IMG/VR virus record: IMGVR_UViG_3300047195_000574 | Coordinates: 1 to 26,078 of that record | DNA from: a virus | Reading direction: 5' to 3' (one strand) | Length of the DNA stretch: 26,078 bases | Shown: piece by piece, positions 3,224-26,020 of the stretch | How the letters are laid out: every line of letters begins with the position of its first letter | Numbering within the stretch: position 1 is the stretch's first letter | The notes under the pieces: model-generated | What the model saw: the letters and a program-made list of their open reading frames with translations, nothing else | Databases searched by the model: none | Told to the model about the DNA's origin: nothing | Made by a program: the position numbers and the translations under genes

Positions 3224-5284
3224 ATGGCCGACCAGGAACAGGAAATCTTCGATTTGAGCTGTGAGTTCGCCAGGGAGGGCAGGGAGGCGAACTACGACTG
3301 GCGCCAGCAGGGCCGCAAGTGCCGGCGTTTCGTCGTTAATAAAGGGGGCGATGACCAGTGGGAAGAGGCGGACAAACTCGCACTTCAAAACAAGGGTGTC
3401 CTGCCGATAACGATAAACGGGATGCTGCCGATAAGGGACCATATTGTCGGCAGGCAGGCGCAAAGCCCGCGGGACCTGACCGTTCTGCCCGCCAAAGGCG
3501 GAAACGGCGTAACGGCGATGATTATCTCCGCGATGCTCAAGCATACGATAGGCCAGTCGTACGGTCTTAACCTGAAGGCGGAGATGTTCAAAGACGGAAT
3601 AACGACGGGACGCGGCTTTTTAGGCGTGGATACTGACTATTCGACCGACCCGGTAAACGGGGACATTGTTTTGAAACTCTTTTCGCCGTTTCACGTCGAT
3701 ATAGACATGCTGGGTCTGCAATATGATTTGAATCAGTCGGGCCGATTTGTAAATACATACGAGTGGGAGGACCGGGACAATCTATTCGCCCATTACAAAA
3801 ACGCCAAAGAAGAGTTAGGCGAATATACAATTGAAACGAACACCGGATTCCCGCTAAAAAGGACAATACAGAAGGTGGCGTCCTGGTTCATGGGGACGAA
3901 GTTCGGCGAGGACATAGACCTCGAGGACTCGCAGAACCTTGACGAGGAAGTTTACAGTCAGTTGATAAGGCGACGGTTCCCGGTCCGAACGAGTTGGCTC
4001 AAGACGTGGGAAAAGGTTGTTTACTGGGCCGACTTGGAGCAGCAGAAGGTCCTGCGTCTTACGGATGCCGGAGACGTCGCAAGGGCAAGGCAATCAGTTA
4101 AATATCTGCCTGAGAGGTTCAAAATCTACGAATCGGTGTTGCCGGTCCTGCATAAGGTTAAGGCGGTCGGCGATATCAAACTCGAATATAAAAAGGACCC
4201 GTTCAAATTCTTAGGTGGGTTAGGATGGAGTTTCGACAAGAAGGGCAATCCCCTAATCTTCGATGTGCCGGCACTGTTCCCCTGTGTTGGTTTCTATGCT
4301 TATTTTGAAGACGGCGAGACATTCGGGAAGATGGACAACCTATTAGGACCTCAGATGGAGAGGAACAAGCGCAGGACTCAGTTTTTACGACTTCTCAACT
4401 CGATGGCGGCGGCCGGGTGGTCGTGGGAGGAAGGGTCTTTAACGTCGGAAATGGAGGAGAAGCTTGAGAATTTTGGGACCAGGCCGGACCTGAATATAAA
4501 ATGGAAAAAACAAACACCCCAGAAGATTCAGCCGGTGGATACTGCCGGGGCGGGTTATTTAAGCGCCTCGATGACCTCTGAAAGGGACATGGAGGAAATC
4601 GCCAGCGTCAATCGTGAATCGCTGGCGAAGAGGGGGCCGGTACAATCCGGGGTGGCAATCGACCTGAAACAGCAGGCGGACAATACAGGCAATGAGATTG
4701 TCTTCAGTAACCTGTCATATTCGAGCGTGATATTTGGTAACCTCTTAACGCAGATAATAAGGTGCGGCGAATATTATTCATACGAAGAGATTAAGTCATT
4801 GATAGATGAAGAGGACCTGATTTCCGGGCCGATTCTAACGGAGGCGGTCCGTCGAGTGGGTCCTGCCCCTCAACCGCCTCAACCGCCGAACCAGGCGGCG
4901 ATGCAACTGGCCTCGACACAGTTCGGCGAGAAGGGCCAGATGCTAACGGCTGCCGTAGGTATCGAATACGAAAAGAAAGTCGCAGAATTTCAGCAGGCGG
5001 ACCAGAAATACAAGGAGTCAATTAAGACCGAGGGCGAGAATGTGATTATGGAGGCGATCGGGGATATCAAGGTCGGTAGATACGGCCTGAAGGTTGTCGA
5101 GGCACCGACCTCGCCGACCTTGAGGGCAGAGAGATTCGAGCAGGTTGTTGCAATCGAAAAGATGAGGCCGAGAGAAATGCCATTCAAAGTTTTGATTGAT
5201 GCCTCGGACATCCCAAACAAGGAAAAAATCATTGAGGAAACAAAGAACCAGCAACCGGTAATGCCGACAGGGGCGGGCAGATAA
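3224..5284 (+). CDS. Phage portal protein, P22 gp1-like
   Basis: A 686-residue portal, expected to form the dodecameric ring at the head vertex that joins terminase and later the tail. The segment PITINGMLPIRDHIVGRQAQ (about residues 62-81) followed by SPRDLTVLPAKGG is the hallmark start of P22-type portals, and the length is close to the ~725 residues of P22 gp1. The middle part has GITTGRGFLGVDTDY and FSPFHVDIDM, also typical. Near residue 545 a proline-rich PAPQPPQPPNQ run precedes a helical C-terminal region like the P22 barrel. The ATG follows the previous stop by one base, with AGGAAG upstream. Position after terminase fits. Confidence 0.93.
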   Translation: MADQEQEIFDLSCEFAREGREANYDWRQQGRKCRRFVVNKGGDDQWEEADKLALQNKGVLPITINGMLPIRDHIVGRQAQSPRDLTVLPAKGGNGVTAMIISAMLKHTIGQSYGLNLKAEMFKDGITTGRGFLGVDTDYSTDPVNGDIVLKLFSPFHVDIDMLGLQYDLNQSGRFVNTYEWEDRDNLFAHYKNAKEELGEYTIETNTGFPLKRTIQKVASWFMGTKFGEDIDLEDSQNLDEEVYSQLIRRRFPVRTSWLKTWEKVVYWADLEQQKVLRLTDAGDVARARQSVKYLPERFKIYESVLPVLHKVKAVGDIKLEYKKDPFKFLGGLGWSFDKKGNPLIFDVPALFPCVGFYAYFEDGETFGKMDNLLGPQMERNKRRTQFLRLLNSMAAAGWSWEEGSLTSEMEEKLENFGTRPDLNIKWKKQTPQKIQPVDTAGAGYLSASMTSERDMEEIASVNRESLAKRGPVQSGVAIDLKQQADNTGNEIVFSNLSYSSVIFGNLLTQIIRCGEYYSYEEIKSLIDEEDLISGPILTEAVRRVGPAPQPPQPPNQAAMQLASTQFGEKGQMLTAAVGIEYEKKVAEFQQADQKYKESIKTEGENVIMEAIGDIKVGRYGLKVVEAPTSPTLRAERFEQVVAIEKMRPREMPFKVLIDASDIPNKEKIIEETKNQQPVMPTGAGR

Positions 5285-7578: not shown

Positions 7579-7616
7579 CCCCCGCGTTAGTTTTGCACCT
7601 TGCAAAACTGCGGGGG
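7579..7616 (+). repeat. Palindromic element, copy 1 (before capsid gene)
   Basis: Inner arms AGTTTTGCA (7589-7597) and TGCAAAACT (7601-7609) pair perfectly over a 3-nt loop; outer arms CCCCCGC (7579-7585) and GCGGGGG (7610-7616) also pair perfectly, with a 3-nt bulge GTT. It lies in the gap between scaffold and capsid genes, immediately before the capsid ribosome site. The same architecture recurs at 10264 and 21253, so it is a dispersed element and not just a local hairpin. No T-run follows it. Confidence 0.85.
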
Positions 7617-7619
7617 GAA

Positions 7620-7625
7620 AAGGAG
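7620..7625 (+). promoter_or_regulatory. Ribosome binding site fixing the capsid start
   Basis: AAGGAG lies six bases before ATG 7632. It rules out the upstream in-frame start at 7593, whose first codons fall inside the palindromic element. The strong site sits three bases after the hairpin, which may influence its accessibility and suits a highly expressed capsid gene. Confidence 0.85.
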
Positions 7626-7631
7626 TTTATC

Positions 7632-8798
7632 ATGACTGCAACAGCGTGGGGGACTAATGACCCCAGAACACAAAAAACGTGGCTTCAACAGTATTTTGAT
7701 TATGCGATAAAGTCGCTGATGCTCAGCGGTATGATGGGGACTGGTCCTGACCAGCCCTTCCAAATCGTCGATAAAATAACAGACGAACGCAAGAAAGGCG
7801 ACAAGGTCGGCCTCGAGCTGGAAATCCCGTTGTCCGGGGTGGGCCAGGGCGACGGCGGTCGAGTGACCGACCACGAAGAGGCGATGGTCATTCAGAACAT
7901 GGAAGTAGTTATCCATGAAAGAATGCACGGAGTCGTCTCGGATGGCAAGCTCAGTGAGAAGAGGACGGCGACGAACTTCCGCGAGCTGGCGATGAGGCAG
8001 TTGAAGGTATGGTCGAAGAACGTCGCGCAGGAGCCGGACCTGATAGCTGCCCTGTTCGGACTCTACAACGCAAGCGGGATCGCAACCGTGAATGAGGTCC
8101 TGCCTTCGGCCAACCGTATTGTTTACGGGGGCCAGAGTGTAGCCGGGGCAGTTTCGGCGGCGACAATGACGAGCGACGCGCTTTTGAGTGCCGAGACGGC
8201 GGCGAGCACACTGTGCGGCCTGCAGTTCCTATCGGTTATCAAACGCAAGGCGATGTTAGCGACGCCGAGAATCAGGCCTCTAAACGTCAACGGGATGGAT
8301 TGTTACAGGGTACTCATCCACCCGTATCAGAAAAAGGCCATTGTGCAGAGCACCGGTGAGCAGGCGTTTATAAAGATGCTCACAGAAGCCGAGCAAAAGG
8401 GAAAGGGCAATCCGGTACTTTCAGGCGGGCCGTTCTTCTATGATGGTATGTTCATCCAGGAATACGACCGTTGCCCGATAAGGACCGGAGCCGGTGGCAC
8501 AACGCCTTCTGAGGGGTTCTGGCTCAATGCAGGCAGGACGGCGACTACAGATCCTGTTGCAAACACAAGGACGGTGGCGGCGGGCATGTTGCTCGGTTGC
8601 CAGGCGGTAGTGTTGGTCCCAGGCGCAAAGCCGGAATGGGTCGAGGACTGGGTTGACGGCAATATACCGTGGGCAAAGGCACACCTGATGTACGCAACCA
8701 AGAAAGTCCAGTTCAATGCGTTCACTCCGCCCTCAACTAATGCCGCGCAGGAAGATTACGGCTGCATCCAGTTCCAAAACCAGGTGATTGTAGATTAG
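7632..8798 (+). CDS. Major capsid protein, N4-gp56 family
   Basis: A 388-residue protein forming the icosahedral shell. The N-terminus (TATAWGTNDPRTQKTW, then AIKSLMLSGMMGTGPDQPFQ) and the segment KKGDKVGLELEIPLSG followed by a GDG motif and a DHEEAMV segment match the N4-gp56/DUF4043 capsid group, which has an HK97-like fold. Further on, FRELAMRQLKVWSKN and a C-terminal region with LVPGAKPEWVEDW fit the same family, and the length is typical. The start is set by the AAGGAG at 7620. A strong terminator follows 20 bases after the stop. I see no domain insertion or truncation. Confidence 0.93.
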   Translation: MTATAWGTNDPRTQKTWLQQYFDYAIKSLMLSGMMGTGPDQPFQIVDKITDERKKGDKVGLELEIPLSGVGQGDGGRVTDHEEAMVIQNMEVVIHERMHGVVSDGKLSEKRTATNFRELAMRQLKVWSKNVAQEPDLIAALFGLYNASGIATVNEVLPSANRIVYGGQSVAGAVSAATMTSDALLSAETAASTLCGLQFLSVIKRKAMLATPRIRPLNVNGMDCYRVLIHPYQKKAIVQSTGEQAFIKMLTEAEQKGKGNPVLSGGPFFYDGMFIQEYDRCPIRTGAGGTTPSEGFWLNAGRTATTDPVANTRTVAAGMLLGCQAVVLVPGAKPEWVEDWVDGNIPWAKAHLMYATKKVQFNAFTPPSTNAAQEDYGCIQFQNQVIVD

Positions 8799-11193: not shown

Positions 11194-13854
11194 ATGAAAC
11201 TTTCTGAAATATCGCGTTTAGCGGGCCTGGCGGAACGTGCTGAGGCGCAGGACATCAAGTGGGCGGGGATATTCTCGCCCGATTTCGGGGAGAGGGAGGA
11301 CATACCGAACATAATTCTGCCTGACGGATTCACCGCTGAAAACCGCAATGTTCTGCTTCTTAACGGTGTTATAGAGCGGATGAAGATGAGGCTGCCGGAG
11401 TTGTTAGAGGCGGAGTTTTCGACGGGAACGCTGACGGCCGTGAACGGAAGCGCAACATTGACCTCAAATGCGGCGGGGACGTGGGGGACCTCAGCGACAC
11501 ACAAGCCCTGCTGGGGCTCAGACCAGTGCGCAACCGGAGGCCGGACAATCAAGATATACGACGACGGCGGCTGGCACAGATACACAATTAAAAACGTTGC
11601 CGATACCGGAACGACACTCACTTTGACGCAGACCTACGCACAGACGGGAGGGGCGGGCCTGAACTATAAAATAAGTCCAATGTCTGCGGATTGGTGGCTG
11701 AAATTTGCCAACGAAGGCGATTATTTATTGGTGACTACGAAAAGTCATATCGAGCCGGGAACATCGGATTTTTCGATGACTGGAAGATGCAAATCAAGTC
11801 AGGCGGAAACCGTATTATTGGTTTTTGAATGGATAAAACCCGGGCCAACAACGCTTTGGATTTATTTTCAGATAAATAAAGCGTCCGAGGGAGGACAGGC
11901 GCATTTTGTAATGTCGGGTGCCGGCGGCGGTGCCAGCGTTAACGCAGGCCCTAATATACAAGACGGTCAGGAACACACAATAGGAGTAAGTTGTGACAGG
12001 GACGGTTACGCACGATTATACGTTGATGGCATTCAGGTCGGCATGGAAAACATGGCCAACCTATCAGCAGACAACTTTATCACGGCAACATACGGACCGG
12101 TCTTTTGCGTGCCGCCTTCAATCGGTTATTTGGACCAGGTGCGTTTTTATAAAGGGGTCATTTTGTCAGATGAACAAATGGCGGCGATTCACAATAACGG
12201 TGCGGGTATCAAAGTTATTTCGGCTGAGATTGCTGCATTATCGCCGGAGGCGGCCTTTTACGCGGAATTTGACGAGGGGACGGGCAACCCGGTCGGAAGA
12301 TACTATTCAGGGACTGCGTGGTCGGATTCGGCAATGACACTTGAGGGGAATACGGCATGGGAGTGGGGCGGGATTAGAAGGGGCACCGAAGTCGGCAAGG
12401 TAAAGACGCCGGATGGTTTCCCGATACTAAAGTATCATAGATTAGTCAAAACAACGGCGGGTGAAGAGTATCTGATGGTCTTTACGAAGGCGCACGCCTA
12501 TTTGTGGAGTACGGCCTGGTCGGCATTTATGTTGAAATTCACCTGTGCCTCGGACTGCGTGATGTGGCAGACGATTGACTTCAATAATCAGATAGTCGCC
12601 ACGAACAACGTCGATAAGATCCAGATCTGGGGTGCAACGGTTGGGAACGCCTTTGCGGCCCTGAGCAACGCGAGCGGCCTCAATGTCGGGGCGGGTGTTT
12701 ATCTGACCGCAGCGACGTATATGACGGAATACAAGGGCTATATTATTGTGGCTGACGTCGTAGTAGGGGGGACACACTACCCATTTTATATGTACTGGTG
12801 CACAAAGGACACTGAGACGGACTGGGACCAGACGGGGACGGGGGACGCCGGGGACGGAATTATAACGGGAGGCGGGCGATTCAGGGGATTTGGTAATTAT
12901 AGTGGTTTCCTGATTATAGCGAAAGAGACGCAGATGTACCATGCGTGGCTGGTAACAACATCGGAGGTCTTCGACCATGATATTGACTACGACAACGTGG
13001 GGTGCCTCGCTCCTGAGACGCTGATAAACGATAGGGAGGGACGATTATACTGGTTAGCCAGTGACTACACAATACGGGAATGGCGGGCGGGGATAATCTC
13101 ACAGGCGAAGGCCGTTACAGTCAAAAAAATCAATCCGCAATACGCGGAGCGTGCGAAGGCGGGCTTTATAGATATTTACAACCAGCTCAACTTTGCCCTG
13201 CCATTCGGTTCGGCGGCGACGGGAAATAACGTAATACTTACATTCGACCCGCCGATTTCCGGACTCGACATGTCTCAGGGCAAGTGGGGCGAGCTCGATA
13301 TCGATGTCTCGGCTTTTGGCGACTATACGAGGCAGACGGTTTATACCTGGTTGACATGGCCTTTTGTGAACTGGCCGGGTATTGGATGGAAGAGTTGGGA
13401 GGGTCCGGAAAACGTAATCGGATTTCCATTAGACCTCGCGGCTGATTTCGACGGCTATACCTACTGCCTTCACTCGGCTGAGACGGACAACGGTCTGGGA
13501 TACTCTGGTCACTTTGTTCTTTCAACTGATATGCTCATACAACAGGCATTAAAACGATACGGCAACGCCCTGGGCCAGTATAAAAAACTGTCGAAAATCA
13601 GGATTTTTCTCAAAAGACAGTTATCGGGCGACTTCACAGTAGAGGTCAAGAGAGACAACGAACAGAACTACCAGGTAGTCGGCAATGTCGATATGTTCGA
13701 TTCAGAGAACCGGGATGTCGTGGAAGGCGAGATTGACTGCGATAGTTGCGGCTTGACTTTGAGGGCGAAACACTACCTTGCAAAGTGCGGTGCCTCGAGC
13801 AGGTTTGAATTTCTCGGTATTATGTTCGGGTTCATACCGGCGGGGGCGAGATAA
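11194..13854 (+). CDS. Tail nozzle/hub-like protein with LamG-type domain
   Basis: An 886-residue protein, likely the tail tube end piece. The N-terminus (GIFSPDFGEREDIPNIILPD, AENRNVLLLNG, then RMKMRLPELLE) has the form of podovirus nozzle proteins, and the C-terminal 480 residues contain repeated beta-blade segments (WRAGIISQAKAVTVKKINPQ, WGELDIDVSAFGDY) as in gp10-type propellers. Residues about 185-340 are a laminin-G/concanavalin-like insert: HTIGVSCDRDGYARLYVDG, IGYLDQVRFYKG and LSDEQMAAIHNNG are classical LamG_3 features. Such a lectin-like insert may bind surface glycans; that is inference. The ATG follows the preceding stop directly, with no clear ribosome site. Confidence 0.78.
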   Translation: MKLSEISRLAGLAERAEAQDIKWAGIFSPDFGEREDIPNIILPDGFTAENRNVLLLNGVIERMKMRLPELLEAEFSTGTLTAVNGSATLTSNAAGTWGTSATHKPCWGSDQCATGGRTIKIYDDGGWHRYTIKNVADTGTTLTLTQTYAQTGGAGLNYKISPMSADWWLKFANEGDYLLVTTKSHIEPGTSDFSMTGRCKSSQAETVLLVFEWIKPGPTTLWIYFQINKASEGGQAHFVMSGAGGGASVNAGPNIQDGQEHTIGVSCDRDGYARLYVDGIQVGMENMANLSADNFITATYGPVFCVPPSIGYLDQVRFYKGVILSDEQMAAIHNNGAGIKVISAEIAALSPEAAFYAEFDEGTGNPVGRYYSGTAWSDSAMTLEGNTAWEWGGIRRGTEVGKVKTPDGFPILKYHRLVKTTAGEEYLMVFTKAHAYLWSTAWSAFMLKFTCASDCVMWQTIDFNNQIVATNNVDKIQIWGATVGNAFAALSNASGLNVGAGVYLTAATYMTEYKGYIIVADVVVGGTHYPFYMYWCTKDTETDWDQTGTGDAGDGIITGGGRFRGFGNYSGFLIIAKETQMYHAWLVTTSEVFDHDIDYDNVGCLAPETLINDREGRLYWLASDYTIREWRAGIISQAKAVTVKKINPQYAERAKAGFIDIYNQLNFALPFGSAATGNNVILTFDPPISGLDMSQGKWGELDIDVSAFGDYTRQTVYTWLTWPFVNWPGIGWKSWEGPENVIGFPLDLAADFDGYTYCLHSAETDNGLGYSGHFVLSTDMLIQQALKRYGNALGQYKKLSKIRIFLKRQLSGDFTVEVKRDNEQNYQVVGNVDMFDSENRDVVEGEIDCDSCGLTLRAKHYLAKCGASSRFEFLGIMFGFIPAGAR

Positions 13855-15261: not shown

Positions 15262-16218
15262 ATGGGATTTTCATTGAGCAGTTTATTCGGCGGAGACGGC
15301 GACAGCGGCGGGTTTAAGGAAATACCATCAACGCCGGGACAGGACCAGATGAGGTCTTTCCTTCTCGAACTGGTGAACCGGGTATTGAAGTATCCGACGC
15401 GGCAGGTAGCGCCTGCGAGTACATATCAGACGCAGGCACTGAGCCGGTTAGGAGAGTTTATGAGTACGGCACCTCGAGGTTACGAGGCCGGGATTGGCGA
15501 GCTCGAAAAGACGGTGGCCGGCGGATATAACCCGGCGACAAGCCCGGAATACGCGGCTTACCGGGACGAATCGCAATGGAATGAAGAGCAGGAGGTAAAC
15601 GCCCTGAAGCGTTCTCAAGAAATGAGAGGGGTCATGCCCGGGACTCCGGCACTCAAACAGGAATGGTTAAGCAGAACGCCATACGCATCGCAGAGAGGGG
15701 GATTTCTGGCAAACCTGATGGACCGGGAAAGGACGAGGCAACTTAACGCGGCGCCGGCACTGATAGAGGCGGGTACGAATGTGCCCTTGAGACAGATACA
15801 GGCCGGTCTGACTATGGGCAATCTGCCGAGAGAGATCACACAGGAAGAAAACGATGCACTGTTCGAGTCGCTAACGCAGACGCTCTTAGGAGATTATACA
15901 ACCAAGGCGCCAATTGCTCAAACTATTCTCAATGAGCCGAGATACGCATATCAACAGGGCCAGGAAAGCGGCGGAGGGGGAATAGGCGACTTGCTCGGTG
16001 GGATACTCGGTCCGCTTCTCGGCGGGTCAGGCGGAGGACTTCAAGGTCTTATGAGCGGGATAGGTGGTTTATTTACACCTGGTGTTATGGCCGAAGGCGG
16101 GTCAATGCTCGAATCGCCGGGGGCAATTGCGGGCATTATGCAGTTATTGGGCGGCGCCGGCGGGGCAGTCGCCGGCGGTGCCGGAGGTCTTGTATCACTA
16201 TTGGCGTCACTTATATGA
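15262..16218 (+). CDS. Putative internal virion/DNA-ejection protein with Gly-rich hydrophobic C-terminus
   Basis: A 318-residue protein. AAAGGAG sits seven bases before the ATG. The N-terminal two thirds are helical and polar (RSFLLELVNRVLKY, SRLGEFMSTAPRGYEAGIGE), followed by a very Gly/Leu/Ala-rich hydrophobic stretch from about residue 235 to the end (GIGDLLGGILGPLLGGSGGG and AGGAVAGGAGGLVSLLASLI). This layout recalls podovirus ejection proteins that insert into the cell envelope. It is translationally coupled (ATGA) to a membrane methyltransferase-like gene and precedes two more internal-type proteins. Exact homology was not recognised. Confidence 0.6.
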   Translation: MGFSLSSLFGGDGDSGGFKEIPSTPGQDQMRSFLLELVNRVLKYPTRQVAPASTYQTQALSRLGEFMSTAPRGYEAGIGELEKTVAGGYNPATSPEYAAYRDESQWNEEQEVNALKRSQEMRGVMPGTPALKQEWLSRTPYASQRGGFLANLMDRERTRQLNAAPALIEAGTNVPLRQIQAGLTMGNLPREITQEENDALFESLTQTLLGDYTTKAPIAQTILNEPRYAYQQGQESGGGGIGDLLGGILGPLLGGSGGGLQGLMSGIGGLFTPGVMAEGGSMLESPGAIAGIMQLLGGAGGAVAGGAGGLVSLLASLI

Positions 16219-16541
16219 TACAAACGATATTGATTATAGCAGGATTGATTTTGAGAGGGTTATCTGTTTGGCAACTCGGGGACGGATTCAGCCTGCAACT
16301 GAAAAAGCCGAAAAAACTCGAAACGAAAGGAATATACCGATTGATGAGACACCCTTCATACCTGGGTAGTTTGATGATTATATCAGGTCTCAGCTTGATA
16401 AACGGCGTTTTTGGCGTTCTGGCGATTTCAATGTCCTTCTTTTTGGAGAGGATTACGGACGAAGAGCAGATAATTGATGCACCGGACTACGACGAATACA
16501 AGAAGAAAACAGGCATATTCTGGCCTAATTTTTGGAGATAG
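16215..16541 (+). CDS. ICMT/PEMT-like membrane methyltransferase, short
   Basis: A 108-residue integral membrane protein resembling isoprenylcysteine carboxyl methyltransferase and phospholipid methyltransferase enzymes, which use S-adenosylmethionine at the membrane face. Diagnostic parts: GIYRLMRHPSYLGSLMIISG (39-58) with the RHP motif, then FFLERITDEEQIID (75-88) with paired acidic residues, and the end YDEYKKKTGIFWPNFW. Hydrophobic segments lie at about 2-20, 50-62 and 63-78. It is about half the usual 190-220 residues, so it may be a catalytic core only. It overlaps the ejection-like gene by four bases (ATGA) and is followed by another internal protein. Activity and substrate are not shown. 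Confidence 0.72.
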   Translation: MIQTILIIAGLILRGLSVWQLGDGFSLQLKKPKKLETKGIYRLMRHPSYLGSLMIISGLSLINGVFGVLAISMSFFLERITDEEQIIDAPDYDEYKKKTGIFWPNFWR

Positions 16542-16544
16542 ACA

Positions 16545-17741
16545 ATGCCTACATACATGGGAATACTACCGCCGAAACCGAGAACCTTCAGACAGGATTT
16601 TCTGCCGGCCCTATTAGCGGGAACGTTGAAAAGCGGCCGGCAACAATCGCAACAGGACTACGAAACCAAGATGATTATGGACATCCTGTCCGGCGTGGAC
16701 CCGAGGACGGCGATAGCGCAACCGCAGGGCGGGTTGTTCTCGAAAATCATAGGCGGCCAGCCGTCAACGAGTAATCTAAGTCCTTTCACGCAACAGGTCC
16801 TGTCAACGATGGTCGCCCAGAAACTCGAAGACCCGTTGGCGAGAAGGGGACGATTAGCGAACGTTATCGGGACGGAGACTCAGACGGAAGGTATGAGGGA
16901 AGATATTGCGGCTTCGCGCGAGACGAGACCGCTTAAACTGAAAAGCATGAGGCAGGAAATCGACGCCCGCGAAAAAGAGATCGCATTTATCGAGCAGACG
17001 AACCCGGAACGGGCGAAGGCATTGAGAAACCAAAATGCACAGATAGAGCAACAACTCGAAGAGAACCGCAAGAAGTTGCCGCTCGAACTGCAAAACCTTC
17101 AACTGTCAATCGATATAGCGAAAGAGAATCTGTCACAAACGAGCGACCTTGCTCCGGTCAAAAAACAATATCTGCAGGCGCAGTTAGACGAGGCGACAAA
17201 CGCTATTGATACAAATAAAAAGATGACTCCTCTTGAGATTCAGCAGTTAGAAGCGACTATCGAAAACATCAAGGCAAACACGGAGTATATCAAGGGCGGT
17301 AAAGGCAAGGGGACCGAACCGTATGAGTTTAATGAACTTTCAAATGCGAGCAAATTCGCAGATCAGGTTCTTATAACTGCGAAAAGAGGTTGGTTAAGCA
17401 GTGTCGGACGATATGACTATCCAAAGGAAGCCCTGCAATCAGCATATAAAAGATTTATTGTTTATGCTGCCCCGAAAACACAAGAGCAAATGGACCAGTT
17501 GAATACTTTGTGGAAGAGCAAGATGAAAACAAATGAGTTTGAGTGGTCTGATGATATGTTCGGTGCGGCAGGGGGCGCGGCCACAGGAAATAGATATACA
17601 AGCGAAAATTCGCGCGTTAATTTTTTAATGGGATGGCTCGACGGGCAAGATGTCCAGATTCAAATGCCCAATGATTCGATATGGACCGTGCCCGAAGACA
17701 AAGCAGATGAGGCAGTAAAACGAGGCGGGAAAAGACTGTGA
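16545..17741 (+). CDS. Coiled-coil internal virion-type protein
   Basis: A 398-residue protein, no family firmly recognised. GGAG lies nine bases before the ATG. The first 60 residues are compact and Gln-rich; residues about 125-260 form a long coiled coil (ETRPLKLKSMRQEIDAREKE, IEQQLEENRKKLPLELQNLQ) with a repeated KKMTPLEIQQLEATI-type heptad pattern; the C-terminal 130 residues look globular. Position between the methyltransferase and the giant protein suggests an internal/ejection protein. It overlaps the next gene at a GTGA junction. Confidence 0.6.
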   Translation: MPTYMGILPPKPRTFRQDFLPALLAGTLKSGRQQSQQDYETKMIMDILSGVDPRTAIAQPQGGLFSKIIGGQPSTSNLSPFTQQVLSTMVAQKLEDPLARRGRLANVIGTETQTEGMREDIAASRETRPLKLKSMRQEIDAREKEIAFIEQTNPERAKALRNQNAQIEQQLEENRKKLPLELQNLQLSIDIAKENLSQTSDLAPVKKQYLQAQLDEATNAIDTNKKMTPLEIQQLEATIENIKANTEYIKGGKGKGTEPYEFNELSNASKFADQVLITAKRGWLSSVGRYDYPKEALQSAYKRFIVYAAPKTQEQMDQLNTLWKSKMKTNEFEWSDDMFGAAGGAATGNRYTSENSRVNFLMGWLDGQDVQIQMPNDSIWTVPEDKADEAVKRGGKRL

Positions 17742-20700
17742 AATCTTACGACTTATCAGACATAGGGGGTGTTTTGGTAGTAGATGCATTAGAAGATGAA
17801 AATGCTTCAAATGACCTGTCTGATTTGGGGGGGATACAGATATCTAAGCCCGATGATTTGTCGGATTTGGGAGGAAAATTAGTAAAACCGCCGGCGGGAT
17901 TCACGGAGAAAATCACGCCGAAGAGAACCAAGTTTTGGATCGCCGGGGGCGATATCTCGCCGATGGGCAGAAGGCCCTCAGAATTGCCCATTTCGAGATT
18001 TATACCTAAGACGGTCGAATCGTGGAAACGCGGCTGGCGTCAGATGGACATTGACTTTCTTTACAACGATGTTATCGACGGCAAAATCACCGAGGAACAG
18101 GCGGACAAGGCATTCGCCGACTTTGAGAGAATCGAAAAAGAGAACCCTATCGAGGCGAAAAACTTTGCTTCGAAGATATGGTATGCAACTGCCCGAATGC
18201 TGCCGGGAATGACGAGAGGATATTATGAGGGTGCGAAGTACGGACTTGTTGGAGCTGGAATGGCTTTGGCGGCCGGACAGGCAGGCCCGCAAGTCCTTGC
18301 ACCTGAAGAGGCGATAACAGTACCCGGCAGTTATGTAATAGGACAGGGGGTCGGTTCGCTGTATTACTGGTCTAAACAGGGTCGAGGAGCAATTTACCGT
18401 GAGGCCAGAAGGCAGGGAGTCAAGCCGGAAACGGCCGCATTAGTAGCGAGTATCGGCGGGCCGATTTACGGGGCGATAGAGTTTAGTCAAGTATCTAAGA
18501 TTGTGCCGGGCGTTAACTTAATCAAGGGCAGAATCCCCAAAATAATACTCGGAATTTTACTAAGGACCGGCCACGAATCCCTTGAGGAAGGCGAGCAGCA
18601 GATAATTCAGGACCTTTCGCAGAGCGTAGGCAAACTGATTGATAAGAAAATCGATGTTGCCGATATACCGGACGAATTGAAAAAAGCGGCTAAGAACTCC
18701 TGGCAGGCGACTTATCAATCGTTAGGGCCAATGGCCCTGTTACAGATACCGGGTGGCGTTGTTTCTATGGCCGGGGCTGAAAAGGCAACCGAAACCGAGC
18801 AGGCAAAACAGATACCATCGAAAGAGGACCTGATACGACAGGAGGAGTTTAACCAAGCCGCGGAGCGAACAAATACTGAAATCGACCAGCAGGAGGAGGC
18901 GTTTGAAAGGGCGATGGCTGAGCTGGAGGGCGAAGAGGCCTCACACCAGGAGGCCATAAGGCAGGAGAGGACCAAGACAATACAAGAACTTGCCAAACCA
19001 ACCGCTCCCTTAAGGAGAGAATTTACCGCAGAGGAAAAAACTAATATATCTGCCCAAGCTAAAGCAAGATTGAATGTGATAGAATTGAAGTCAACAGGTC
19101 AAAAAGCAAATAAAGAAGCAGGATTGCCCTCACAACCAGCGCAGTATCTTACTCTTGAAGAAAAGGCCGAGCGTGATTTTCTCAGGCAAAATGCAGATAA
19201 TCCCGATGCAATAATTGATGCATATCAAATACCGAAGCCCAAAACGCATTTTCAGAAGGGTATTGATGAACTGCAAGCGCAAATGGAGAGGGAAAAGCAA
19301 ACACCTGAAGAAATCCAGCGATTAAGAAAGCTTGCTGAAGAACCTGTAATGCCCCAGATTGCAAAAACACCCTCCCAACTACCGCAAGTAGAGGTCGAAG
19401 GCCCGACAGTAACGGCTGGTGAAGCCAAGAGGCCGATAAAAGGTGTGGTTGACCTGTTAGGACAGCCGGTGGTAGAGGCGGCGCCGAGGCAGAAACAACT
19501 CGGTTTGGGCCTCGAATTCAAACCCGGGGAGGCACAGGACGTTGAAATCACACAGGAATTGGCCTCATTCGTCGATAAGTGGGTCCACGAGACCGAAGAG
19601 ACAGTCGATGCAATCGGCAAAAAGACCATTCGATACGTCAATAGTCCGGATGTCGATGAGATTTACAATGGGATAGTCGATTCGGGCGAAAAGATGACAA
19701 AGTTATTTAAGAAGGAAACAAACCCATCACTTCAGGTAGCAACAGCTTTGAGACAAGCGACATTAGGTAGGACATTTGAAAAGACAGTGCAGATACCGGC
19801 GCCGCCGGCGGGATTTACGGAGGACGTAACACCATCCCCCATAGTTTCAGAAACCGAAACCGGCATGGGGGGTGATACGCAATGGCCGGAACCATTGCGT
19901 ATCATGTGGAACCGGATGAAGAGGCCTGACCGCAAGGCATACGCACAGGCATACGCCGCATGGCAGGTCGGCGGAATGAAGGGCAAGCCGCCGAACGCAG
20001 AGCAGTGGGTATTGGCAAACCATGAGGCGGCGGGAATCAGGAGTAAGGTCAAATTGGCGATAGAACTGGGACGGCGAAAAGACACTATGACGCCGGAGCA
20101 GGTAAAGGACAGGGCGGACAGGATACGTTACCGAAAGAAACTTATCGAGGAGACGTCCGCCGCGATACAGGGCCACGACCTGTACCAGTCGAACGAAGAG
20201 TCGAGAAAAGAGCGAATGGGCGATATCGGGCCGGGGTTCTATTACGTTTCGCCCGATTTGGCAACGGAGGTCTTCGACGTTATCGGCAGGCCGAAGGTCG
20301 GCAGGGGGACGCGGTTACAACAAATGTTCACTACGGACCCGGCGGCGGGCGCCAAGCCGATAGATGAGGCGTTACAGTCGGCGAAACTACGATATACCGA
20401 AGGCAGTGAGATGGGCAGAGAGGGGTTCGATATCGGGCCGGGCGAGTTTGCCCAGGCGGTTAAGGAGGCGGTGGAAGGTTCGGCGGGCGAGAAGGTTAAC
20501 GAGAGGTCCTTGAGAGAGGCAGAGTCGGGCGATCCATATCTGAGGATGTTAGGGGCAAAACTGGAAATGCTGCGAAGCGGCGAGACCGCCGACACAATAG
20601 ACGAAGCACTGACCCGAATCGGGGACGAACTCGGGCTCGAACCGGATGTTTACGAGGACCTTCTTATCGGTGAAGAGTCGGCGGCGATGAAGCAGATCCG

Positions 20701-23700
20701 GCAGGCGCCGACCGAGGCCGAGAAGGAAATGATCATAGATAAGCTGGCCCGGCAAAAAGTCGAGAGGCAGAACCGGTTCGAGGGCCATCAGGCAGCCGCG
20801 GAAATACTCGAAGCCAATAAGATAGCAGATGATGTGGAAATCAAAGATGTGGAAGGCATCACAGAAGAGGGATTACCCGTCAAACCCGAGGATGATATCC
20901 CGTTCGAGACGAGGGGAGTAAGAACCGGGGCATATCTCGGCAGGGCGGGTCAAGAGGTAATTTTACTGGCCTACGGAGCTGATAGCGAGACGGGCTATCA
21001 CGAGGGCTACCACGCTCTTAGGGACCGGCTGACGGCAAATGATAAGAAGGTCTTAGATGCGAAATATGAGGGCGATACCGAAAGAGAGGCCAGCGAATTC
21101 GCTGAGTTTGCCGCGGACAGGGCAGAAGCGCCTTCGAATTATATCCGCCACATCTGGAAGAAACTCATTGAAATCCTGACGAGAATCAAAAACGCCCTTG
21201 CAGGCAGAGGATACAAAACGGCGGAGGATATATTTGAGGGGATACGAACGGGGACGGCCCCCTTAGTTTCGCAGGGCAAAACTGGCAAGGGGGCTGTCGC
21301 AAGGCCTCCACAGTTTGAGACGAAGAAAGGCCCTGTTTTCTATTCGAAGTTGCGGCGATTAGTCGAGGAGCGGATGCCGAACGCTATGGATGCCGAGGCA
21401 TTTCGCTCGTTCGTCAAGAAGATGGGCGTCAAAGATGAGGAGATGGAATGGTCGGGGGTAAATGATTTGCTCGACTGGCCCAATACATTAACAGGGCAAT
21501 GGAATAAAGCAGGGGGAAAACCTGTAACGGTCAAGAAAAAGCAGGTCTTAGATACGATCGCCGCGAACAGTATTGAGATTCAGGAGGTTGAAAAGTCTGA
21601 GGAAAGGTGGAAGAGAACAAAAACAGAGGAAGGAACTTATTCTAAAGAAGAACAACCCACAAAGTTTGAAAGTTACCAGCTCCCCGGCGGGGAGAATTAC
21701 AGGGAGTTGCTTTTGCAACTGCCCGGCAAATATACACTCGAAGGCGAGGAGAAATTTCAATATAAATCAACACACTGGATAGAAGGTAACGTTCTCGCCC
21801 ACATCCGCTTTAACGACAGGACGGACGCCGAAGGCAAGAAGGTCCTGTTTATCGAGGAGATACAAAGTGACTGGCATCAAGCGGGAAGGAAGCAGGGATA
21901 CCAGCAAAAAGCCAAACCATACCTATACGACGACGGAAAATACTGGGGAATAAAACATCCAGACGGCACGCTGGTTGGGCATTATGAAACAAAAGAGGCC
22001 GCCCAAAAAGTTATCGACGAGAGAGTTGACACGATGGGCTTTGTCCCCGATGCTCCCTTCAAGAAGACATGGCAGGAGCTGGCGTTCAAGAGGATGCTGC
22101 GATACGCCGCGGAGAACGGATACGATAAAATCGCCTGGACGACGGGAGAGCAACAGGCGGAGAGATACGACCTGAGCAAACAGGTGAAAGAAATAGAATG
22201 GTGGAACCAAACAAAAGATAATATCTCGCTTAGGGTGCGGGGATTAGATGGCAACATTATTATCGCCAGAGAAGATATAAAACCACAGGAAGCAGAAAAC
22301 ATCATTGGAAAAGACATCACAAATAAAATCCTAAAAGATATTAGCAATCATATACACGATGGAAGTTATTCTGGGCAAGACCTCAAGGTTGGCGGGGAGG
22401 GGATGAAGGGTTTTTACGATAAGATTCTGCCGGAGTTTGCGAACAAATACGCAAAGCAGTGGGGGGGCCGGGTCGGGGAAACAATAGTCCCTGACACAGA
22501 CGAAGGGGCTGAAGGATATGTTGTATTCGGACCAAACAATACCGTAATGGGGCAATACCCGACAAGAGCAGAAGCAAAGATTGTTGAAGAAAAATACGGC
22601 GAAGGTTATTGGATTGAAGAGGTTCAAAAAAATGATTTGCGCGTTCATTCCCTCGATATTACGCCCTCGATGCGGGAGTCGGTAATGGCGGGTCAGCCGC
22701 AGTTTGAGCACAAGTCGGCCGACCAGTGGCGGAGGGAAGGTATAAAACGGGCGGAAATAGAGGCGGCGAAGGCGCGACTGCGGGCGAAGGCGGGGATGAA
22801 GAGTGTCAACCGGGGCCGAATGAAGGCGGTAATAAGGGATGTAACACCCTTGATAACGACTGAGTTTTCACCGCAGGAAACAGAGGCGGTGAAGGGTTTG
22901 CCGATAACTGGCAGGAAGCCATTAACGACGAAAATCAAGGACGTTACACCCTGGGTATCGGAGGAATGGCAACCGGAGCCGAAACTGGCGGCGAAGCCGG
23001 AGGGTCCAGAAGGTGCTCCGATGCCGGAGGCAGCTCATTTGGGACCAAGGAACCGGCGGGGGCCGGTAGTTACCGATAAGGAGCTCACGGAAGAAATATA
23101 CAAGGCGAACCGCGCCCGGCGAGAGTCGATTGTTCGATTGGGGTTAAGTATCGAAAATCTTGGCGGTACAATCGCCAAAGAGGCACGTCTGACCTTCAAG
23201 TCGATAGACCGTGTTTTGCGGGACGTCAATCTGGCTATCAAGCGGATAATGGTCGATATGGAACAAAGGTGGAAGCAACGGGAAGGTCAGCACATGGAGG
23301 AGATTCGCCCGTTCATGAAGACGACCCGCAAGATGAAACGGGGCGACTGGAAGGACTATGACCTGGCGTTAAAGAGCGGGGACCGGACAAAAATTGAGGT
23401 GATGCAGGCGAAGTATCCGGCTTTGGTCGAGGCGGATGCGAAGTGGCGTCAGGTTGCGGATGATATTATCGAACTCGAAAGACAGGTCGGACTCGAAGAG
23501 GACTATCGGGAATGGTATTATAACAGGCGGGTTAGGGACCTGCCGGGCCTGAAAAAGTGGATAAACGACCAATACGGTGAGAGTGGTATAATGACAATTT
23601 TCGAGGCCGCATTACAGAGGCGCAAGGAAAACGCCGGCGGTCGTAAACTCACACCGGAGGAAGAGGCAACGGTCCTGAATAATACCTTGCGTGGGTTTGT

Positions 23701-25135
23701 CGGTCGAAGGGTATGGCTTTCAAAACCGGGCAGCACCAAAGAGAGAACTTTATTTGCCTTCGACGAGAATATCAATCGATTCTACTATGATTCAAGGCAG
23801 GCGATGGTAATGAGGATTGCCGATGCCCACGCGGCAATAGCATCGAGGGAATTTTTCGGAAGAGAGACGCTTGAATTGCAGAACCTACGGGCCGAAAAGA
23901 GCCGTCTGGCAACAAGGTTATACAAAGCAACTACCCGAATAGGCGATAAGAAAGTCGATGAAGGCGATATCAAGAAGGAGCATTTAAGTAAGGCCCGGAT
24001 TAGGTTCGAGGAAATCAGCAAGAGAATCGAGGAGTTCAAAAACCAGTCGATTGAGAGTTCCGCGGGCAATCTCGCCAACGAACTGGTTATGAAAAGGAAG
24101 ATAAGGCCGGAGGATGAATATAAACTTCAAAGTGCACTCGAGGCGTATTTTCAGCCGGCGAGGGCAAGCCATTCACTACACTTCGTAAGGTCAACGGCAT
24201 ATACAACGCACATCGGTAATTTCCTGTCGGCTATGACGAACCTTATGGACTACGGTTGGATATTATACAGAGCGCCTTACCATACATTATCGGCAACATT
24301 GCGGGCGACAATACCCGGATTAAAGAGTCGATATACAATGGATGAACTAGGATTAAACGAAATGGCCTACGATATGGACAAATTCGGGATGATTCAAAAA
24401 TGGGTGTTCAGAGGCGCTGGGTGGAAGTTGCTCGATATCAAGATGAAAAACATACTGGCAGATGCAGTTTATAGCGACTTTATGTCTAAGGCCCGGAAAG
24501 CAAAAAATCTTAAGTCGGGTACGGACTTTATGGACCGCCTGCAGGAGTTCTTCGGCGATGATACGAAGGGAGTTATCGAGGACCTGCAAAGCGGGCTAAA
24601 GACGGAACAAACGACAAAACTTGTTTTCGACGAGGTTACAAGAAAACATCCATTACTGCGTTCGGCAATGACTGAACGGTACTTGCGGTCGAACTGGGCG
24701 AGGTATGGTTATATCCTGAAGAATTTCGGTCTCAGGGACGCTCAATATTTGTTAGATGAGGCGTTCAAGGACTTCGGCAAACACCCGGCCCGAAGCGTTA
24801 AGAGAATACTCTGGATGGCGTTTACCTTAACGGCGGCCGACGTAGGCGTAAGAGTATTGAGGGACCTGTTCAGGGGAAGGAAGATTGAACTCGATAAGGC
24901 CGTGGCGGATGCCTGGTTGAACCGGCTTTTCCTGTCGCGATACAACATAAACATAATGAGACGAGAAGGACTTGGCAAAGGGATTACTGAGGCCATATAT
25001 CCGCCAACTCCTGTTGAAATAAGTGTAAGGCAGATACCTTTGGTCGGAGAACCGTATTACAACTGGTTCGGCGAGGGCAGACGCAAGGAACTCGAGAAAC
25101 AGGAAAAAGAAAGTAAAAAAAATCAGGGTATGTGA
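17738..25135 (+). CDS. Giant polyvalent internal virion protein with zincin motif
   Basis: A 2465-residue multidomain protein, likely carried in the head and ejected with DNA. It starts at GTG in a GTGA overlap. Residues 5-46 hold three DLSD[IL]GG repeats. After a Gly/Ala hydrophobic segment (about 160-240) comes a charged coiled region, then YHEGYHAL with HExxH at 1088-1092 and acidic EREASEFAEF 25-32 residues later, a zincin-like peptidase pattern. A large domain at about 1195-1650 contains FIEEIQSDWHQ (1371-1381), AWTTGEQQAERYD (from 1466) and LDITPSMRESV, well known by eye from phage polyvalent proteins but of unassigned chemistry. The C-terminal 700 residues are helical and end PLVGEPYYNWFG. 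Linker phrases PPAGFTE and DVTP recur. One palindromic element (copy 3) is in frame at residues 1173-1187. Confidence 0.8.
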   Translation: MKSYDLSDIGGVLVVDALEDENASNDLSDLGGIQISKPDDLSDLGGKLVKPPAGFTEKITPKRTKFWIAGGDISPMGRRPSELPISRFIPKTVESWKRGWRQMDIDFLYNDVIDGKITEEQADKAFADFERIEKENPIEAKNFASKIWYATARMLPGMTRGYYEGAKYGLVGAGMALAAGQAGPQVLAPEEAITVPGSYVIGQGVGSLYYWSKQGRGAIYREARRQGVKPETAALVASIGGPIYGAIEFSQVSKIVPGVNLIKGRIPKIILGILLRTGHESLEEGEQQIIQDLSQSVGKLIDKKIDVADIPDELKKAAKNSWQATYQSLGPMALLQIPGGVVSMAGAEKATETEQAKQIPSKEDLIRQEEFNQAAERTNTEIDQQEEAFERAMAELEGEEASHQEAIRQERTKTIQELAKPTAPLRREFTAEEKTNISAQAKARLNVIELKSTGQKANKEAGLPSQPAQYLTLEEKAERDFLRQNADNPDAIIDAYQIPKPKTHFQKGIDELQAQMEREKQTPEEIQRLRKLAEEPVMPQIAKTPSQLPQVEVEGPTVTAGEAKRPIKGVVDLLGQPVVEAAPRQKQLGLGLEFKPGEAQDVEITQELASFVDKWVHETEETVDAIGKKTIRYVNSPDVDEIYNGIVDSGEKMTKLFKKETNPSLQVATALRQATLGRTFEKTVQIPAPPAGFTEDVTPSPIVSETETGMGGDTQWPEPLRIMWNRMKRPDRKAYAQAYAAWQVGGMKGKPPNAEQWVLANHEAAGIRSKVKLAIELGRRKDTMTPEQVKDRADRIRYRKKLIEETSAAIQGHDLYQSNEESRKERMGDIGPGFYYVSPDLATEVFDVIGRPKVGRGTRLQQMFTTDPAAGAKPIDEALQSAKLRYTEGSEMGREGFDIGPGEFAQAVKEAVEGSAGEKVNERSLREAESGDPYLRMLGAKLEMLRSGETADTIDEALTRIGDELGLEPDVYEDLLIGEESAAMKQIRQAPTEAEKEMIIDKLARQKVERQNRFEGHQAAAEILEANKIADDVEIKDVEGITEEGLPVKPEDDIPFETRGVRTGAYLGRAGQEVILLAYGADSETGYHEGYHALRDRLTANDKKVLDAKYEGDTEREASEFAEFAADRAEAPSNYIRHIWKKLIEILTRIKNALAGRGYKTAEDIFEGIRTGTAPLVSQGKTGKGAVARPPQFETKKGPVFYSKLRRLVEERMPNAMDAEAFRSFVKKMGVKDEEMEWSGVNDLLDWPNTLTGQWNKAGGKPVTVKKKQVLDTIAANSIEIQEVEKSEERWKRTKTEEGTYSKEEQPTKFESYQLPGGENYRELLLQLPGKYTLEGEEKFQYKSTHWIEGNVLAHIRFNDRTDAEGKKVLFIEEIQSDWHQAGRKQGYQQKAKPYLYDDGKYWGIKHPDGTLVGHYETKEAAQKVIDERVDTMGFVPDAPFKKTWQELAFKRMLRYAAENGYDKIAWTTGEQQAERYDLSKQVKEIEWWNQTKDNISLRVRGLDGNIIIAREDIKPQEAENIIGKDITNKILKDISNHIHDGSYSGQDLKVGGEGMKGFYDKILPEFANKYAKQWGGRVGETIVPDTDEGAEGYVVFGPNNTVMGQYPTRAEAKIVEEKYGEGYWIEEVQKNDLRVHSLDITPSMRESVMAGQPQFEHKSADQWRREGIKRAEIEAAKARLRAKAGMKSVNRGRMKAVIRDVTPLITTEFSPQETEAVKGLPITGRKPLTTKIKDVTPWVSEEWQPEPKLAAKPEGPEGAPMPEAAHLGPRNRRGPVVTDKELTEEIYKANRARRESIVRLGLSIENLGGTIAKEARLTFKSIDRVLRDVNLAIKRIMVDMEQRWKQREGQHMEEIRPFMKTTRKMKRGDWKDYDLALKSGDRTKIEVMQAKYPALVEADAKWRQVADDIIELERQVGLEEDYREWYYNRRVRDLPGLKKWINDQYGESGIMTIFEAALQRRKENAGGRKLTPEEEATVLNNTLRGFVGRRVWLSKPGSTKERTLFAFDENINRFYYDSRQAMVMRIADAHAAIASREFFGRETLELQNLRAEKSRLATRLYKATTRIGDKKVDEGDIKKEHLSKARIRFEEISKRIEEFKNQSIESSAGNLANELVMKRKIRPEDEYKLQSALEAYFQPARASHSLHFVRSTAYTTHIGNFLSAMTNLMDYGWILYRAPYHTLSATLRATIPGLKSRYTMDELGLNEMAYDMDKFGMIQKWVFRGAGWKLLDIKMKNILADAVYSDFMSKARKAKNLKSGTDFMDRLQEFFGDDTKGVIEDLQSGLKTEQTTKLVFDEVTRKHPLLRSAMTERYLRSNWARYGYILKNFGLRDAQYLLDEAFKDFGKHPARSVKRILWMAFTLTAADVGVRVLRDLFRGRKIELDKAVADAWLNRLFLSRYNINIMRREGLGKGITEAIYPPTPVEISVRQIPLVGEPYYNWFGEGRRKELEKQEKESKKNQGM
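21253..21298 (+). repeat. Palindromic element, copy 3, in frame within the giant gene
   Basis: Arms GACGGCCCCCTT (21253-21264) and AAGGGGGCTGTC (21287-21298) pair over 12 bp including one G-T pair; inner arms AGTTTCGC (21265-21272) and GCAAAACT (21276-21283) pair apart from one mismatch, with 3-nt bulge GGC. It encodes residues 1173-1187 (TAPLVSQGKTGKGAV), a linker between the zincin region and the next domain. The 36-nt core is a multiple of three. It shares its core with copies at 7579 and 10264. Confidence 0.85.
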
Positions 25136-25888: not shown

Positions 25889-25924
25889 TGCAATCGTATT
25901 AAAAAAATGAATATGGAGATTCAA

Positions 25925-25990
25925 ATGCCGTCGTGTCAAATAAGAGGCAATAATAAATCTTGGGGCCGGTGGGATTCTCTCATGTCTTGA
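25925..25990 (+). CDS. Possible 21-aa leader ORF
   Basis: A 21-residue ORF with GGAG six bases before its ATG (an in-frame ATG at 25907 has no ribosome site). The peptide has three Ser-Cys or Ser-Trp pairs, two Trp and two Arg. It lies about 30 bases after the predicted transcription start and is fully inside a structured RNA segment, so it is either a leader peptide or a chance ORF. Confidence 0.3.
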   Translation: MPSCQIRGNNKSWGRWDSLMS

Positions 25991-26020
25991 CGCGACGGCG
26001 GGATGAACATCGGCTTTTTT
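25927..26020 (+). ncRNA. Candidate structured RNA with closing stem and U-run
   Basis: A 13-bp closing stem (GCCGTCGTGTCAA 25927-25939 with TTGACGCGACGGC 25987-25999, one G-U pair) surrounds a 47-nt loop with inner stems AATC/GATT and AGAG/CTCT. GCCGGTG (25965-25971) could instead pair with CATCGGC (26008-26014), which ends in six T residues (26015-26020). Two incompatible folds before a U-run look like an attenuator or riboswitch arrangement; no known class is matched. The plus-strand promoter lies upstream. Confidence 0.45.

Follow-up and report, generated by a model that had tools for sequence, protein, structure and literature searches.

A half-size ICMT/PEMT-like membrane protein in a conserved slot of the putative ejection cassette of podovirus-like phages

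We analysed a small membrane protein, termed mini-ICMT, which is very probably the core of an ICMT/PEMT-superfamily methyltransferase maintained in a conserved slot of podovirus-like phages. It comprises only the C-terminal catalytic half of ICMT (TM3–TM5 and the C-terminal cap), a half-size form that had not been seen in the first-pass annotation of this DNA. The window, i.e. the whole stretch of 26,078 nucleotides analysed here, is a 26-kb IMG/VR viral record, and part of the genome is thus missing. As the best explanation of the role of mini-ICMT we tentatively suggest methylation of a hydrophobic C-terminus, that of the protein encoded directly upstream, putative ejection protein 1 (E1).

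The 108-residue open reading frame with RHPSYLG and EE…YDEY features pointed out in the first-pass annotation was recovered with exactly the same boundaries (Table 1), and its residues E83, E84, Y92 and Y95 lie within DEEQIIDAPDYDEY. The reported ATGA coupling holds, the ATG of mini-ICMT sharing nucleotides with the TGA that ends the preceding gene; the partner is the upstream and not the following gene, and the downstream gene starts 3 nt past the mini-ICMT stop. The DNA pattern encoding G-x-Y-3x-RHP-x-Y-x-G was found once in the window and not at all in 100 shuffles. Following the frame upstream, a stop is reached without any start codon, which means that a hidden N-terminal half is absent and that mini-ICMT begins at TM3.

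Table 1 Features of the window discussed in the text.
Feature	Position	Strand	Evidence
P22-like portal protein	3224..5284	+	PF16510, 4.9e-50; places the block in a podovirus-like morphogenesis operon
Major capsid protein	7593..8798	+	Phage_capsid_3 / phrog_334
Tail/virion structural protein upstream of the cassette	11194..13854	+	phrog_3287, 4.8e-16
E1, putative ejection protein 1 of 318 aa without cysteine, ATGA overlap with mini-ICMT start	15262..16218	+	Agrees in position, length and tail with its counterparts in five other contigs
Codons of the uncharged hydrophobic E1 C-terminal tail (last 18 residues, GAVAGGAGGLVSLLASLI)	16162..16215	+	
Half-size ICMT-like membrane methyltransferase (mini-ICMT, predicted), 108 aa	16215..16541	+	PF04140 9.9e-11, PF04191 1.2e-10; model pLDDT 94.7; 5vg9 Z 12.8, 4a2n Z 10.9
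RHPSYLG motif, mini-ICMT residues 45–51	16347..16367	+	R45, H46, P47, Y49 invariant in 63 relatives
E83-E84 ... Y92-x-x-Y95 region	16461..16499	+	E83, E84, Y92 invariant, Y95 nearly so, in 63 relatives
Putative ejection protein 2 (E2), 398 aa, no cysteine, charged C-terminus	16545..17741	+	Position
Very large protein of 2465 aa, putatively ejected and free of cysteine	17738..25135	+	Local phage endolysin PHROG match, phrog_7348 3.3e-14

Using hmmscan against Pfam, mini-ICMT matched the ICMT profile PF04140 with 42.4 bits (gathering cut-off 24) and the PEMT profile PF04191 with 42.2 bits (gathering cut-off 25), as well as DUF1295 at 2e-5, confirming the ICMT/PEMT-like family proposed before. 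The alternative of an NnrU-like protein was not borne out, as the NnrU profile was absent from the Pfam matches up to an E-value of 10. Against the NCBIfam equivalog for ICMT sensu stricto (NF040696), mini-ICMT reached 39 bits, aligning to positions 78–188 of 190 only. Because this score is far below the cut-off of 160, mini-ICMT is by its sequence a member of the ICMT/PEMT superfamily and not an ICMT in the strict sense. The residues Y41, R45, H46, P47, Y49, E83, E84 and Y92, invariant in an alignment of 63 sequences, are all kept in mini-ICMT.

With six sequences AlphaFold gave a model of insufficient quality (pLDDT 77), and all comparisons were made with the one obtained from 63 relatives. 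It superposed on the eukaryotic ICMT 5vg9 over 106 residues with 1.9 Å and on positions 79–192 of Ma-ICMT (4a2n) over 105 residues with 1.6 Å, at Z-scores (Table 1) of a size that helical bundles may ordinarily reach (under about 13) and to which the sequence match adds independent evidence here. The combination that the first-pass annotation had named as speaking against its family call, no PF04140 or PF04191 match together with a fold lacking the SAM pocket, was not what we observed, the predicted fold superposing on ICMT catalytic cores. Sterol and steroid reductases share this fold (4quv, Z 12.2; 7c83, Z 7.3), so that the fold alone cannot separate SAM- from NADPH-dependent enzymes; for mini-ICMT, a methyltransferase is favoured by the RHPxY and EE residues together with the Pfam scores. 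Among the BFVD predicted viral structures no match to the model with an E-value ≤ 0.001 was obtained.

For comparison with cellular proteins, 80 relatives were gathered from genome contigs of bacteria and archaea, where they are widespread. Nearly all of them carry about 70–130 residues ahead of the matched region; their lengths are mostly 174–264 aa, and two extra N-terminal helices (TM1–TM2) are present in nearly all. Among the few shorter ones, L048 is cut off where its contig ends and L045 has an internal stop.

The motif DNA pattern identified 16 viral loci, five of which encode a half-size protein of 109–122 aa (IMG/VR contigs L110/G004, L112/G005, L114/G006, L116/G007 and L118/G009); a profile scan of viral contigs recovered the identical five. 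Four further loci (L085, L086, L088, L095) are ordinary longer ICMT members on viral contigs. The five other phage mini-ICMTs share 34–46% identity with the window copy, and PF04140 and PF04191 were matched by all six. In a first tree with cellular sequences the six formed one clade with support of 78/58, rising to 94/79 and 95% of bootstraps after long-branch removal; with few alignment columns, we take the support for a common phage clade as good but not firm. Five of the six have a shorter loop before Y92, without the FG of cellular ICMTs.

Other searches did not extend this set. Single-protein scans of viral contigs with the window mini-ICMT, E1, E2 and the capsid protein found nothing, the first alignment with Ma-ICMT and beetle ICMT found no member in viral contigs, and a plasmid search yielded no mini-ICMT match. 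By tblastn against 50,697 phage records, the window and G006 copies had no match, and the G007 copy matched only records with full-length ICMTs or bacterial-looking DNA. In one 240-kb record labelled 'Acinetobacter phage MD-2021a' (L126) the ICMT is surrounded by genes for metal efflux and of chromosomal type, and this record looks bacterial. Profile searches of about 1,190 distinct bacterial genomes belonging to the same phyla as L004/L005, L059 and L006, sampled in four draws of which two shared genomes, gave nothing above the level of full-length cellular ICMTs, and hence no prophage copy was found there.

In all five contigs mini-ICMT immediately follows a gene of 248–317 aa and is itself followed at once by another late gene; the window shows the same order, which answers the conservation check suggested in the first-pass annotation. 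The ATGA overlap with E1 is present in the window and four of the contigs, and in G009 is replaced by a 2-nt gap. The portals recognised in the five contigs belong to P22-like families (phrog_156, phrog_1216), and the capsids of the mini-ICMT phages to at least three families (phrog_334, phrog_1357, phrog_9953). As G004 and G006 are related (tail protein 57% identical), about four to five independent lineages carry mini-ICMT. The flanking genes align between phages at only 14–28% (upstream) and 13–22% (downstream) identity, making mini-ICMT by sequence identity the best-conserved gene of the cassette.

The location in an ejection cassette proposed earlier agrees with this context, the neighbours being putative ejection proteins judged by their position, by the endolysin-like match in the large gene and by annotations in relatives; Paracoccus and Rhizobium phages of the same capsid type carry annotated structural or injection proteins. 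The endolysin PHROG match of the 2465-aa protein covers residues 1319–1492, the protein also matches phrog_28077, and pieces resembling it occur in cyanophage and Pelagibacter phage proteins. In G005 (L112 15072–19994, L113 1–6610) and G007 (L117 389–7329) long gene runs lie beside the tail genes, which, judged by sequence starts alone, look like sugar- or glycan-modifying genes. Genes annotated as acetyltransferases are found beside late structural genes in Paracoccus phage KLEP18-1 (L002 11145–11534) and Pseudomonas phage Itty13 (L139 27167–27604). We considered GNAT genes near internal virion proteins as a parallel and set it aside, the annotation of KLEP18-1 gp18 being unsupported by Pfam and the literature not settling the matter. 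Near the right end of the window (25915–26010) there is a hairpin with a 14-bp stem (−33.8 kcal/mol, z −3.7 versus shuffles, no Rfam match), which could be a structured RNA or a regulatory element.

The C-terminus is an uncharged, hydrophobic Gly/Ala-rich stretch in all six E1 proteins. The five contigs contain 145 open reading frames of 100 aa or more, and such a C-terminus is present on just five of them, precisely the genes directly upstream of mini-ICMT; in the window E1 is likewise the only protein of this kind. The products of the genes downstream of mini-ICMT end in charged residues. Known ICMTs act on prenyl-cysteine, and to our knowledge CAAX prenylation is absent from bacteria. Window E1, mini-ICMT and the 398-aa and 2465-aa proteins contain no cysteine at all, and the E1s of the other contigs none or one. 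Since the window's ejection proteins are cysteine-free and bacteria are without CAAX prenylation, a prenyl-cysteine substrate among the cassette neighbours appears unlikely, and so does, for these neighbours, the action on C-terminal cysteines that had been suggested for this class of protein; a host protein might still serve as such a substrate.

Related contigs without mini-ICMT were obtained by a scan with the G004/G006 tail protein. In one of them (L136) the E1 homologue, 52% identical to G006 E1 (1.6e-42), runs past the hydrophobic region into a Peptidase_S74 domain (2.9e-16), which is also present on the L138 homologue (1.2e-10) and on a Rhizobium phage protein (5.6e-7). This self-cleaving chaperone domain, C-terminal in the E1 genes at L136 18620–19438 and L138 13416–14177, usually sits on tail spikes and fibres. 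The Ser…Lys spacing of the self-cleavage dyad is kept in all three proteins (SDERLK, SSRNVK, SDARLK); in endoNF the dyad is S911/K916 (PMC8326128). With this spacing kept, the mature S74-bearing homologue would be expected to end near the hydrophobic region too. A strict co-occurrence of the hydrophobic E1 tail with mini-ICMT is ruled out by L135 and Paracoccus phage KLEP18-1 gp19, which have the tail and neither S74 nor mini-ICMT, so the tail does not require the enzyme. S74 accompanied mini-ICMT in 0 of 6 cases and occurred without it in 3 of 5 (one-sided Fisher about 0.06, calculated by hand on related sequences). The two share the slot and were never found together, an exclusion that at these small numbers is only suggestive.

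In the account we tentatively favour, mini-ICMT would act as an intramembrane SAM-dependent methyltransferase of ICMT type reduced to its catalytic half, and its phage-specific clade would belong as a regular component to the ejection-protein operon of several podovirus-like lineages. Its synthesis in the host membrane would coincide in time and place with that of E1, and the two might meet co-translationally. Mini-ICMT, which would sit in the membrane with its positively charged loop (KKPKKLETKGIYRLMR) in the cytosol and would bind SAM, may contact the hydrophobic Gly/Ala-rich C-terminus of E1 and methyl-esterify or otherwise methylate it. ICMT caps the C-terminal carboxylate of prenylated proteins, and the proposed capping of E1 would be its analogue, leaving a neutral tail that could enter the membrane of the next host when the genome is ejected. 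The conserved core, the single clade, the fixed slot with its ATGA, the hydrophobic tails confined to E1 and the S74 domain in the same slot are consistent with E1 methylation. Speaking against it are the lack in E1 of the prenyl-cysteine that known ICMTs use, the occurrence of the tail without mini-ICMT and, arguably, the altered loop before Y92; the loss of TM1–TM2 could also affect stability or oligomerisation. That a dedicated minimal intramembrane methyltransferase chemically caps the C-terminus of the phage's own ejection protein, functionally standing in for the S74 chaperone of its relatives, is an extension that we regard as unlikely.

The main rival, which we place nearly level with E1 methylation and nonetheless hold to be somewhat unlikely, is a PEMT-like lipid or isoprenoid methyltransferase modifying the inner membrane of the host, either at entry or late in infection; its targets might be head groups or isoprenoid carriers, and the change might help ejection, lysis or superinfection exclusion. 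The ICMT/PEMT superfamily mostly acts on lipids or lipidated substrates, PF04191 scores as well as the ICMT profile and the window's ejection cassette offers no cysteine substrate. However, an enzyme acting on lipids in general would have no need of a single fixed position behind E1 across divergent phages, and no further lipid gene was recognised among those of the window. A structural role is less likely, and indeed decidedly unlikely: mini-ICMT would then be a membrane component of the ejection machinery, a packaged or inserted three-helix bundle anchoring E1 and binding SAM only for stability or regulation. Its small size, its strict position and coupling to E1, and an E1 tail suited to packing against membrane helices would fit this role, but the invariance of the catalytic-core residues at such overall identity is hard to explain without catalysis.

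The widespread cellular relatives and the full-length ICMT homologues on other viral contigs would also be compatible with a host-derived auxiliary gene (moron), unrelated to the ejection proteins and located in the late operon by chance. We consider this origin highly improbable, as it is already disfavoured by the single phage clade, the half-size form in all six copies and the same slot despite different capsid families. The missing N-terminal half, present in nearly all cellular relatives, might finally suggest a decaying, truncated ICMT gene without function, which is scarcely credible and is refuted by conservation, six divergent copies of similar length having kept their motifs, open frames and mostly coupled starts.

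These results bear on how short-tailed phages bring their ejection proteins into and across the host membrane. A predicted membrane methyltransferase conserved while its operon neighbours diverge points to a chemical step in ejection with one obvious candidate substrate, and its conserved slot in divergent phages suggests a dedicated role, not described before, when the virus enters or is assembled. Should the core suffice for activity, mini-ICMT would rank as the smallest active ICMT-fold protein encountered in this analysis; most of the other relatives found are about 180 aa long or longer.

Among solved structures the best relative is Methanosarcina acetivorans isoprenylcysteine carboxyl methyltransferase (Ma-ICMT, PDB 4A2N; phmmer 4.6e-7, aligned over its residues 99–192 only), with which mini-ICMT shares the catalytic core including RHPxY, EE and YxxY; unlike this 194-aa enzyme, it lacks TM1–TM2 and has no apparent prenyl-cysteine substrate. 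Eukaryotic ICMT (PDB 5V7P, 5VG9) resembles it in the C-terminal core (Z 11.3–12.8) and differs by its 288 aa, additional helices and prenylated CAAX protein substrates. From the PEMT phospholipid methyltransferases, whose profile it matches, mini-ICMT differs by its phage location. The Peptidase_S74 chaperone (PF13884) fused to E1 homologues takes the same slot after the hydrophobic region with an unrelated fold. A phage family without a given function, phrog_26245 (131-position profile), matches mini-ICMT residues 27–98 at 2.5e-6 and may hold relatives. For Edwardsiella phage eiAU, ORF51 was reported to have a BLAST hit to isoprenylcysteine carboxyl methyltransferase (PMC3025963), but this gene is placed among DNA-replication genes and not in an ejection cassette. 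In the limited literature searched we found no report of a half-size ICMT or of an ICMT in an ejection operon. ICMT-like phage genes had been mentioned earlier for Edwardsiella phages, and what appears new here is the half-size form and its ejection-operon setting.
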